Shown here: piece by piece, positions 38,161 to 41,338 of the stretch | How positions within the stretch are numbered: position 1 is the first letter of the stretch | Layout of the letters: each line of letters opens with the position of its first letter | Source of the DNA: Streptomyces sp. GS7 | Lineage (GTDB): Bacteria; Actinomycetota; Actinomycetes; Streptomycetales; Streptomycetaceae | DNA length: 64,000 nt | NCBI RefSeq assembly: GCF_009834125.1 | Contig: NZ_CP047146.1 | Span: forward strand, 7,286,501-7,350,500 | Direction of reading: 5' to 3' | Notes under the pieces: generated by a model | What the model was told of the DNA's origin: nothing | The model's database searches: none | The model's input: only the letters and a program-made list of their open reading frames with translations | Position numbers and translations under genes: made by a program

Positions 38161-41100
38161 TCAGCCCTTGTCCAGATACTGCTCCCGTTCGTCGTCCAGC
38201 AGCGCCGACAGCGCGGTGCGCAGCTCCGGATAGCCGGTCAGCTCGGGGTCGGCGGCGACCACCGCGGTGGCCTCCTCGCGGGCCGCCGCGATCACCTCCT
38301 CGTCCTCGATGACGGCGAGCATGCGCAGCGAGGAGCGGACGCCGGACTGGGCCTGGCCGAGGACATCACCCTCGCGCCGCTGTTCGAGGTCGATACGGGA
38401 GAGCTCGAAGCCGTCGAGGGTGGCGGCGACCGCGGCGAGCCGGGCGCGCGCCGGGCTGGCCTCGGGCATCTCGCTGACCAGCAGGCACAGGCCGGGCGCG
38501 GAGCCGCGGCCCACCCGGCCGCGCAGCTGGTGCAGCTGGGAGACGCCGAAGCGGTCCGCGTCCATGATCACCATGGCGGTGGCGTTCGGGACGTTCACGC
38601 CGACCTCGATGACGGTGGTGGCGACCAGCACGTCCAGCTCGCCGGCGGCGAACCGGCGCATCACGGCGTCCTTGTCGTCCGGGGCCATCCGGCCGTGCAG
38701 CGCCGCCACCCGCAGCCCTTCGAGCGGGCCCCTGGCCAGCTGGTCGGCGATCTCGAGGACGGCGAGCGGCGGTCGCTTCTCCGCGATGTCCTCCGGTGAA
38801 CCGGCCGTGGCCGCCCCGCCCTTGGCGCCCGCCGCGCCCTTCTTCCCGCCCTTGGCGGCGACTTCGTCCTCGTCGTCGCCGATCCGCGGGCACACCACAT
38901 ACGCCTGGTGCCCGGCGGCCACCTCTTCGCGGACCCGCTCCCAGGCGCGGGCGAGGAAGTGCGGCTTGTCCTTGGCGGGCACCACATGGCTGGCGATCGG
39001 CGAGCGCCCGGCGGGGAGTTGGTCCAGGACCGAGGTCTCCAGATCGCCGAAGACGGTCATGGCGACCGTGCGCGGAATCGGGGTCGCGGTCATCACCAGG
39101 AGATGCGGCGTGCGCTTCTCCCCCTGGGAGTTGTTCCCCTTGCCGCGCAGGGCGTCGCGCTGCTCGACGCCGAAGCGGTGCTGCTCGTCGACGACGACCA
39201 GGCCCAGGTCGTGGAACTGCACCTTGTCCTCGATCAGCGCATGCGTGCCGATGACGATGCCGGCCTCGCCGGTGACCAGGTCGAGCAGCGCCTGGCGCCG
39301 GGCCGCGACGCCCATCGAGCCGGTCAGCAGCACCACTTTGGTGCCCTGGTCGGAGCCGCCCAGCATCCCGCCCTCGGCCAACTCCCCCATCATCTCCGTG
39401 ACGGAGCGGTGGTGCTGCTGGGCCAGCACCTCGGTCGGTGCGAGCATCGCGGCCTGGCCGCCGCTGTCCACCACGCCGAGCATGGCGCGCAGCGCGACCA
39501 TGGTGTTGTGCGTGACGGTGAAGTGGTCGGTCACGTAGGCGCGGCTCGGGTGGGCGACGCTGATGCACTGGACGGGCTTGCGGCCCACGTGCTCGACGGC
39601 CTCGACGGTGCGCCGGAAGCCGCTGTCGCCCTCGGGGGGCGCCCACGCGCCGCCGGCCTCCCGGAACGGCGGATACGCGGCCGGCAGCGCCACGTGCACC
39701 CTGCAGGAACCGTCCGGCACGCGCGCGATCCGGGCGCAGCCGCCCAGGGAGCGCACCAGCCACGCGAGGTCACCGGCCAGCGGGGCGGGCGCCCCGCGGA
39801 ACACCGCGGCGGCTCCCGCGGGCTCGCCCCCGGCGTCCATCAGGCCCTGCACCAGCGCCAGCCGGTCCTTGAGCGGTGCGTTGCGGCAGGCGTCCGGGAC
39901 CCGGCGTCCGTGCGCGCTCCCGCCGCCCAGGTCCAGCCCCAGGAGGTACGGATCGTGCGGGCGGTCCCCGCCGCCTTCGAGGTCCACCGGCGTGGCCGGC
40001 GCGATGGACCACCGGGGCCGGCCGTCGGGGCCCAGCAGATCGGCCCGCAGCTCGCGGGTGGTCAGCACCCGCTCCCCCGTGCTGCGGGAGCCGACGATCC
40101 ACAGATGCTCGTCGTCGGCCTCGACGCGGCTGCCGTCGGACAGCACCAGCCGCCAGACCTCCCGCTCGCCCTGCGGGAAGACGCCGTCCACCAGGGCGAT
40201 CCCGCCGTCCGGCACCACCACTTCGGTGCCGGGGGCCATCTCCCCCATGGGCCGGAAGCCGCGCGGGGTCAGCACCAGGGCGTCCAGCGGCTGCGCCTTG
40301 CCGGAGCCGACCTCGCCCTGGAGGAGGCGGTGCATGGGGTGTTCCGTCGCCAGGTCGTCGAAGATCTCCCGGCTGACCTTCTGCTGGCCGTCGGTGAGCG
40401 TGAACGGCAGCCGGGCGTCGAACGCGTCGAGGATGCCGCCCTCGGTCACCGCCCGCGCCACGGCGGGGAGTTGGGTCTCGGCGAAGCGGCGCCGGGCCAG
40501 CGCGATCTGGAGGACGAACGCCTCGTCCCACTTCAGCCGGGCGCGCGCGCCCGCGATGTCCGCCTTGCTGCCCGGCCGGTGGATCTTCAGCAGCGCCTCG
40601 GGGAGCGGGATCAGCGCCCGGCCCTCGCGCAGCGCCGCGGGCAGCGGGTCGACGGCGTCCCGGGCGCTGGGCAGCACCGCGTCGACCGCCTTGGCGAGCT
40701 TCCAGGACGCCATTTGCTGGCAGGCCGGGTAGATCGGCATCAGCTGATTGGCGAATGCGTCGACCGCTCCCGCCTCGCTGTCGGCGTCGCGGTCGAGGAG
40801 TTGGTATTCGGGATGGGCGAGCTGGAGTTTGCGGTTGAAGACGGACACCTTGCCCGCGAACATCGCGCGCTTTCCCGGCAGCAGCTCTTTGTGCGGTTTG
40901 TGGATGCCCTTGCCGAAGAAGACCAGCTGGAGACGGCCGCTGCCGTCCGTGAGGGTCACTTCCAGCCGCTGGCCGCGGCCGTGGTTGAACGTGAGGACGC
41001 GGGCGTCGGCGACCTGGGCGACGACGGTGACGTGCTCGTCCAGCGGGAGATCGGCCAGCCGGGTCAGCTCACCGCGCTCGGCATAGCGCCGGGGATAGTG

Positions 41101-41202
41101 GTGCAACAGATCGCCGACCGTATGCAGGTCGAGATGCTCGGCCAGCACCTTCGCGGTGGTGCCGCCGAGGATTTTCTTCAGGGGTTCGTCGAGCGCTGCC
41201 AC
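38161..41202 (-). CDS. recG: ATP-dependent DNA helicase RecG, interrupted by an intein
   Basis: RecG remodels stalled forks and Holliday junctions. The 1013-residue precursor is about 260 residues longer than normal RecG, because an in-frame intein splits motif I (GEVGSGK | TMVALRAML). Extein features are an N-terminal wedge/OB domain, DExH box VVDEQHRFGVEQRDAL, TATPIPRTVAM, and QLRGRVGRG. The GTG at 41202 follows AGG by about 6 nt. Without protein splicing the Walker A Lys-Thr pair would be separated, so activity depends on removal of the intein. Confidence 0.95.
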   Translation of the reverse strand: MAALDEPLKKILGGTTAKVLAEHLDLHTVGDLLHHYPRRYAERGELTRLADLPLDEHVTVVAQVADARVLTFNHGRGQRLEVTLTDGSGRLQLVFFGKGIHKPHKELLPGKRAMFAGKVSVFNRKLQLAHPEYQLLDRDADSEAGAVDAFANQLMPIYPACQQMASWKLAKAVDAVLPSARDAVDPLPAALREGRALIPLPEALLKIHRPGSKADIAGARARLKWDEAFVLQIALARRRFAETQLPAVARAVTEGGILDAFDARLPFTLTDGQQKVSREIFDDLATEHPMHRLLQGEVGSGKAQPLDALVLTPRGFRPMGEMAPGTEVVVPDGGIALVDGVFPQGEREVWRLVLSDGSRVEADDEHLWIVGSRSTGERVLTTRELRADLLGPDGRPRWSIAPATPVDLEGGGDRPHDPYLLGLDLGGGSAHGRRVPDACRNAPLKDRLALVQGLMDAGGEPAGAAAVFRGAPAPLAGDLAWLVRSLGGCARIARVPDGSCRVHVALPAAYPPFREAGGAWAPPEGDSGFRRTVEAVEHVGRKPVQCISVAHPSRAYVTDHFTVTHNTMVALRAMLGVVDSGGQAAMLAPTEVLAQQHHRSVTEMMGELAEGGMLGGSDQGTKVVLLTGSMGVAARRQALLDLVTGEAGIVIGTHALIEDKVQFHDLGLVVVDEQHRFGVEQRDALRGKGNNSQGEKRTPHLLVMTATPIPRTVAMTVFGDLETSVLDQLPAGRSPIASHVVPAKDKPHFLARAWERVREEVAAGHQAYVVCPRIGDDEDEVAAKGGKKGAAGAKGGAATAGSPEDIAEKRPPLAVLEIADQLARGPLEGLRVAALHGRMAPDDKDAVMRRFAAGELDVLVATTVIEVGVNVPNATAMVIMDADRFGVSQLHQLRGRVGRGSAPGLCLLVSEMPEASPARARLAAVAATLDGFELSRIDLEQRREGDVLGQAQSGVRSSLRMLAVIEDEEVIAAAREEATAVVAADPELTGYPELRTALSALLDDEREQYLDKG
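39505..40296 (-). other. Class 3-type intein in the RecG P-loop
   Basis: The insert covers 264 codons. It starts with Ala rather than Cys or Ser (AQPLDALVLTPRGF) and ends in THN before extein Thr. In intein numbering it has Trp66 (DDEHLW), Cys244 (VQCISV) and Thr262 (THN), the W-C-T triad known for class 3 inteins, which start splicing from the block F Cys. The middle keeps two decayed LAGLIDADG-like segments (LLGLDLGGGS at about 118-127, LVQGLMDAGG at about 148-157). Their catalytic acids appear lost or shifted, so the homing endonuclease is probably dead. Confidence 0.9.
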
Positions 41203-41338
41203 GCAACCTATTGCACACCACGCCACTGACAGCGGGCCACAATCACCGCATTCCCCGGCCCGCCGTTCACCGGCGTTCCGCGGAGGCGGTGAGGGATGTT
41301 GAGAGGCGGTGAGAGATGGTGAGAGGCGGCTATTTCGA

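Follow-up and report, generated by a model that had tools for sequence, protein, structure and literature searches.

The Walker A insert of RecG in Streptomyces sp. GS7 poses a simple question: what is a 264-residue segment doing inside the loop with which a helicase binds adenosine triphosphate (ATP)? The gene lies in a stretch of 64,000 nucleotides (contig NZ_CP047146.1, positions 7,286,501 to 7,350,500 of the forward strand; hereafter the window), for which an initial annotation, made from the letters alone, had proposed a class 3 intein in the RecG P-loop. We conclude with high confidence that the insert is indeed a class 3 intein, placed between the Lys and the Thr of the Walker A motif. 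This conclusion draws on the place of the insert, the reading frame, the signature residues, the fold prediction, the empty sites in relatives, conservation and selection, all computed here.

The insert and its exact place in recG

The recG frame of GS7 runs through 1021 codons without a stop, and its translation reads GEVGSGK/AQPL...VTHN/TMVALRAML across the two junctions (marked by slashes). The precursor scores 1109.6 bits against the NCBIfam RecG model NF008167 (cut-off 995) in two match stretches, and the wedge, OB, DEAD, Helicase_C and RecG_dom3_C domains are recognized by Pfam, confirming the unbroken RecG frame described initially. No second RecG was found when the GS7 genome was searched with the whole protein; the next-best matches were two pieces of a 1303-codon helicase-like frame (E-values of 7e-22 and 5e-20) and three weaker ones.

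The insert comprises exactly 264 stop-free residues (AQPLDALVL...FTVTHN). It sits between Lys and Thr, as GSGK/insert/T, the position of a P-loop (Walker A) intein, whereas empty sites read GSGKT. The earlier claims that 264 residues part GSGK from T in motif I, and that the insertion falls within the P-loop, are thus upheld by the translation of the insert and its flanks and by relatives with a joined GSGKT. The G+C content of the insert (0.773) and of its third codon positions (0.958) are both only slightly above those of the flanks, so that its composition bears no mark of foreign origin. After splicing, mature RecG would have 757 residues, counted from the listed GTG, a provisional start codon.

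Class 3 signature residues and predicted fold

Scans of the insert alone against Pfam and NCBIfam gave no accepted intein match, and it was therefore classified by residue-by-residue comparison and by structure. Among 61 relatives of the insert, Pfam assigned LAGLIDADG_3 to 30 and Hom_end to 22, and NCBIfam assigned intein-containing models such as GyrA_w_intein to 18. Class 3 inteins are defined by Trp B:12, Cys F:4 and Thr G:5, in addition to His B:10, His G:6, Asn G:7 and a Ser or Thr at position +1 (PMC5222942; here and below, published work is cited from the accessible part of its text). The GS7 insert begins with Ala, with no Cys or Ser nucleophile at position 1, and possesses Trp66, Cys244 and Thr262 together with His64, His263, Asn264 and Thr+1. 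The Ala start, the THN end and the W-C-T triad therefore all stand where they had been placed initially. Asp61 occupies the position that is threonine in class 1, giving the DxxH form that has been described for the mycobacterial intein DnaBi1 (PMC6195587).

Asp61, His64, Trp66, the block F Cys, THN and Thr+1 are kept in all 115 RecG-intein loci collected in this study. The extraction pattern demanded Ala1, the final His-Asn and Thr+1, which none of the 115 input loci failed, and left Asp61, His64, Trp66, the block F Cys and the Thr of THN free. Ala1 is also invariant in a 20-row alignment of RecG inteins. A class 1 intein, which needs Cys, Ser or Thr at position 1, was rejected in view of Ala1.

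The predicted fold of the insert is that of inteins generally (Hint), as in class 3. Solved class 3 inteins rank high in the structure comparison, with PDB 6bs8 the top-scoring solved class 3 fold among the matches listed; solved class 1 inteins rank high as well, so the class assignment rests on the residues. Since every published signature residue is present and conserved throughout the 115 loci, the initial class 3 reading is well supported. The coordinates are collected in Table 1.

Table 1. Features of the recG locus of Streptomyces sp. GS7 (positions in the window)
Feature	Position	Strand	Remarks
recG open frame (N-extein, intein and C-extein)	38161..41226	-	translation, NF008167, own-genome search
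RecG N-extein (wedge, OB fold, start of helicase domain), C-terminal end GSGK	40297..41226	-	
GSGK, opening part of Walker A, with Lys as residue -1	40297..40308	-	
Highly probable class 3 intein, 264 residues, Ala1 to Asn264	39505..40296	-	
Block B His64-Leu65-Trp66 (His B:10, Trp B:12)	40099..40107	-	His and Trp in 115/115 loci
Remnant of first LAGLIDADG motif, DPYLLGLDLGGGS	39916..39954	-	catalytic Asp replaced by Gly; rest of half mostly deleted
Second LAGLIDADG half, kept (residues 142-206)	39679..39873	-	motif LVQGLMDAGG without catalytic Asp
Cys244, block F position 4, proposed initiating nucleophile	39565..39567	-	115/115 loci
Thr262-His263-Asn264, block G, C-terminal splice junction	39505..39513	-	
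Thr+1, proposed splicing nucleophile and Walker A threonine	39502..39504	-	
RecG C-extein	38161..39504	-	

Distribution of the insert and empty sites

Among 392 Streptomyces genomes, an uninterrupted RecG site, scored by the strict pattern GEVGSGK-x-MVAL, was found in 203. Matches to the insert occur in 123 genomes at E ≤ 0.001, 71 of them at E ≤ 1e-40, and none of these 71 is among the 203 (lists compared by eye); 118 genomes show neither a strong match nor the uninterrupted pattern. The RecG locus was fetched from 35 of the 71 strong-match genomes, and all 35 carry the insert at the same site. Four of the 52 genomes with weaker matches were opened and gave three PhoH inteins (L033, L034 and L036) and one in a UvrD-like helicase (L032), and PhoH inteins were opened in two of the strong-match genomes, too (L035 and L038).

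The 115 RecG-intein loci combine 30 from the genus search, 80 that are the best of 140 loci, and five from a search of the class; these sets overlap and hold 99 distinct inteins, every locus with the insert at the same RecG site. By record title, 79 of the best 80 belong to Streptomyces and one to Actinacidiphila. Among 150 RecG proteins (GS7 included) drawn from two listings, the best 120 of each, 121 have the insert, 27 are uninterrupted at the site and two (P0087 and P0127) are unassigned. A clear case of an empty site is P0123 of Streptomyces sp. NPDC058773, which reads GSGKTMVALRAML and whose extein shares 97.4% identity with the extein of P0045, a protein with a 273-residue insert. The comparison with other Streptomyces RecG proteins that had been proposed as a check thus yields relatives in which the site is exactly joined. 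Given these exact empty sites and the wide distribution of the insert at one site, chance or a frameshift artefact was rejected as its source.

Outside Streptomyces, the RecG insert was found in Actinacidiphila (L115), in L186 (genus code g120) and in L191 (g115, of the same family); the intein of L186 is identical to that of L115, and the two probably represent the same species. In a sample of the family, matches at E ≤ 1e-60 were obtained in 29 of 249 genomes. Seven of these genomes are not Streptomyces: two have the match in RecG (L186 and L191), three have it in a lysin-like host (G665, G806 and G822), and two belong to genus g127 (G731 and G733; host not read). No RecG insert outside Streptomyces was identified among 296 genomes of the class, most of whose weaker matches were not opened.

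One-sided erosion of the endonuclease

In both LAGLIDADG motifs of the GS7 intein the catalytic Asp has become Gly, from GDG to GGG in the first and from DTDG to DAGG in the second; the insert thus lacks the two Asp-bearing motifs of an active LAGLIDADG homing endonuclease. Neither is the insert a strict mini-intein, in which the whole endonuclease domain is gone, as the second half is still there, as a segment modelled with confidence. The two decayed LAGLIDADG segments of the initial annotation hold in that both lack the catalytic Asp, but the decay is asymmetric, with the first segment mostly deleted and the second kept as a fold. By comparison with related inteins, the GS7 endonuclease is almost certainly dead. 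With most of the first half deleted and Gly at both catalytic positions, the GS7 copy should not home and should be inherited with its gene.

Catalytic Asp residues were counted from alignment columns across the 115 inteins, and the loss of the first repeat was measured against 338-residue members of the family (L026). Of these inteins, 54 have up to 305 residues (47 distinct), 12 have 306-329 and 49 have at least 330. Both catalytic Asp residues are present in 41 of the 49 long forms, compared with five of the 54 short ones, 42 of which have neither. Relative to L026, the short forms keep a median of 9% (maximum 48%) of the first-half core, its first 16 residues excluded, and a median of 97% (minimum 80%) of the second half. 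In six of the 12 forms of intermediate length the first half is likewise mostly gone (6-24% remaining), and at least 80% of the second half is kept in all 115 inteins. A second-half match was reported, or seen on fetching, in all 71 strong hits of the genus search (rows judged by eye); forms without the second half would have been found in that search because the N-terminal blocks match.

When intein length is mapped on a tree of RecG exteins from 92 loci, the states of ≤305 and >305 residues require 17 changes, at least six of them on well-supported (starred) branches, in a quick tree with three long rows on which gain and loss are indistinguishable. The natural reading is that shortening occurred on several occasions and always on the same side. 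We tentatively extend this to the proposal, which we hold possible though doubtful, that class 3 inteins of Actinomycete helicases decay by one route: the first LAGLIDADG repeat is repeatedly deleted, whereas the nuclease-dead second repeat, which adjoins the C-terminal splicing blocks, is kept as a scaffold needed by the splicing domain; the short form in RecG would then have been inherited vertically within a Streptomyces clade and may by now act as a switch of the helicase. In some inteins, splicing is impaired when the endonuclease is removed (PMC8966425), which could explain why one half stays. One-sided erosion is not universal in class 3, as the mycobacterial DnaBi1 has only a linker, and several rows of a further search that match only the first ~70-80 residues may be minimal forms.

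Selection and inheritance

The pooled ratio of nonsynonymous to synonymous substitution rates (dN/dS) was estimated with Nei-Gojobori type counts from 42 short inteins, picked from the 115 by similarity to GS7 (861 pairs, which are non-independent, in a set that mixes clades). It is 0.22 and 0.21 in the splicing blocks (residues 1-75 and 233-264, respectively), 0.165 in the C-extein and 0.275 over the final 300 N-extein residues, and it rises to 0.46-0.57 in segments of residues 76-206 and to 0.78 in the linker 207-232. The splicing blocks are thus under purifying selection, which supports continuing function.

In a quick tree of 81 dereplicated RecG proteins, GS7 belongs to a clade of 42 (Shimodaira-Hasegawa-like approximate likelihood ratio test 97) that consists of 41 proteins with short inteins and one with an empty site; over the whole tree, nine changes between empty and occupied sites are needed. 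Extein and intein distances are correlated among 62 short-form rows (r = 0.86, permutation maximum 0.45) and among 18 long-form rows (r = 0.68, permutation maximum 0.67). These data are in keeping with a nuclease-dead form that was passed on vertically and was exactly lost or replaced at least once. Recent homing into GS7 is unlikely, as the catalytic Asp residues are missing and intein and extein distances agree in the short forms. The homing-cycle model expects nuclease-dead forms to be lost against intein-free alleles (PMC8966425).

Proposed splicing pathway and alternative explanations

From the signature residues and published class 3 chemistry we infer the following steps. After translation, the Hint domain would splice itself out, as related inteins do: Cys244 would attack the peptide bond between Lys(-1) and Ala1 and take the N-extein as a thioester, Thr+1 would take over the N-extein from Cys244, and Asn264 would cyclise. 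A final acyl shift would join GSGK to T, by which RecG would gain its ATP-binding loop. Since Thr+1 is the Walker A threonine itself, splicing both needs and restores this residue, an economy also described for the P-loop serine of DnaBi1 (PMC6195587). By analogy, unspliced RecG would be unable to use ATP; a P-loop intein in RadA disrupts the ATPase function, and the same has been assumed for DnaB (PMC6195587).

That the insert might instead be a domain of mature RecG that is never removed is scarcely credible: many Streptomyces RecG proteins do contain it, but it splits Walker A, it has a Hint fold and the complete set of class 3 residues, and close relatives without it have the site joined exactly. 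An open frame could also hide an intein that has lost splicing and leaves RecG interrupted and inactive, like the pseudogene intein of Arthrobacter Arth_1007. Intein pseudogenes are known (PMC3196547), and one relative weighs against a splicing intein, namely P0087, an insert-bearing RecG (321 kb contig) in which the reading frame is altered ahead of block F, so that it is either a pseudogene or an assembly error. For GS7, however, we consider this very unlikely, as no catalytic residue is missing, the sole recG copy found has an intact frame, and the splicing blocks evolve at dN/dS values within the range of the RecG exteins.

A further idea adds to, rather than replaces, a splicing class 3 intein: splicing might be conditional, for example on redox state or zinc via Cys244, and the short form kept as a post-translational switch of the RecG ATPase. 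A class 3 mini-intein that occupies the P-loop of a helicase, Msm DnaBi1, has been described as a sensor of oxidative stress (PMC6195587), 41 of the 42 dereplicated members of the GS7 clade keep the short intein, and a Cys60 stands beside block B in 108 of the 115 loci. GS7 itself is among the four loci with Ala60, so that a redox cysteine pair like that of DnaBi1 could not be assigned in its intein, common as Cys60 is in the family; moreover, one member of the clade has an empty site, and retention could also follow from the rarity of exact loss. Altogether, we regard such a switch as improbable, and a class 3 intein that splices as the best explanation of the insert.

Other class 3 inteins

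A second class 3 intein of the GS7 genome, of 331 residues with a degraded endonuclease, occupies the DnaB P-loop as GK/ALALDT...THN/ST (L174:1460-2452, minus strand; G000:C1:9029000-9033500). From 33 Actinomycete loci of this type, ranked by similarity to a short form with the second half kept, 30 inteins were extracted (L176, L208 and L214 left out); the DnaB host was read for L174-L176 and taken from similarity for the others. Fourteen have 284-331 residues (L175 and L194 being the same place) and 16 have 403-417. By eye, the first half is incomplete in the shorter ones and the second is kept, a length gap due partly to a cysteine-rich insert in the first half of the long forms. In the 16 long inteins (L198, L204-L206, L210-L213 and L215-L222) this CxxC insert in the first endonuclease half looks, by eye, zinc-ribbon-like.

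The top non-Streptomyces match of the class search, which is also its strongest match outside RecG (L152, G658:C20:15739-16812; E 2.7e-84), sits at VGAGK/T in a very large helicase-like frame of 2042 codons and is possibly a relative of the donor of the RecG intein. Class 3 inteins were also met in PhoH, in Streptomyces (L033-L036 and L038) and in other genera of the class (L153-L155, L158, L160, L163 and L170), and in the P-loop GCGK/SS of a UvrD-like helicase of a Streptomyces genome (L032, G316:C65). In L190, L192 and L193 the intein lies outside a P-loop, at VEGN/T of a small lysin-like protein that by eye is amidase- or CHAP-like with a peptidoglycan-binding C-terminus.

On viral contigs, 26 of 28 loci (L119-L146, some near-duplicates) hold an intein of class 3 type between GK and S/T, by eye in many different ATPases; of the exceptions, L141 has the intein after SK and L146 holds only an intein end. 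A phage origin of such inteins has reportedly been proposed in print, with which these P-loop sites are in line. The sole Intein_splicing family match in the GS7 genome (L001, G000:C1:1383031-1383291) is a Hint domain in the C-terminal part of a large protein rich in Ala, an arrangement that resembles that of pretoxin Hint domains, and was not taken as an intein.

Significance and comparison with known inteins

With this intein, RecG would take its place beside DnaB, PhoH and phage ATPases among the well-documented hosts of class 3 inteins. The long, half-eroded and empty alleles among relatives of one genus form a good natural series for intein decay, in which the repeated loss of one endonuclease half makes it testable whether the endonuclease and splicing domains depend on each other. 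The spread of the insert through Streptomyces (71 of 392 genomes at E ≤ 1e-40) likewise merits attention. Among the proteins of the best-120 listings, judged by eye, those with the insert are mostly named "helicase-related protein", and some RecG or DEAD/DEAH box helicase, whereas the named intein-free ones are called RecG; automatic annotation can therefore miss recG in such genomes.

A table in a 2018 review (PMC5874633) already lists RecG among the hosts of inteins, in a passage that gives no site, class or species. In the literature searched, with most subscription papers outside reach, neither the phrase "RecG intein" nor the whole words intein, Streptomyces and RecG together were found. 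The closest counterparts are Msm DnaBi1 and Mle DnaB (DnaB site b; PDB 6bs8), which share with the RecG intein the class 3 residues, the place in a helicase P-loop, the P-loop Ser/Thr at +1 and the lack of a working endonuclease (PMC6195587). They differ in the host, DnaB, and in the endonuclease region, where the 139-residue chain of 6bs8 has only a linker, compared to the half-LAGLIDADG domain without catalytic Asp that is kept in RecG. Similarly, MchDnaB1 (PDB 6rix and 6riy) has another host and chains of 145-146 residues, with no endonuclease half kept (PMC7664689).

The mycobacteriophage intein TerL1-a lies between Lys and Thr of a P-loop, as in RecG (PMC5050341). Its host is a phage terminase, and the likeness drawn here is that of the insertion site. 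PhoVMA is a class 1 intein and begins with its nucleophile. Like the GS7 intein it has lost the catalytic Asp residues of the endonuclease and kept splicing, but its partial truncation is in Block E (the second motif) rather than in the first half (PMC8966425). The Actinomycete PhoH class 3 inteins resemble the RecG intein in the AQP start, the EHLW or DHLW of block B, the block F Cys, THN and Thr+1, and the five Streptomyces cases are 39-43% identical to it over the N-terminal half; they are inserted at MRGR/TLN, outside the P-loop. As class 3 inteins in a P-loop are already known from DnaB (PMC6195587), it is the one-sided erosion of the RecG inteins that is the point worth following.
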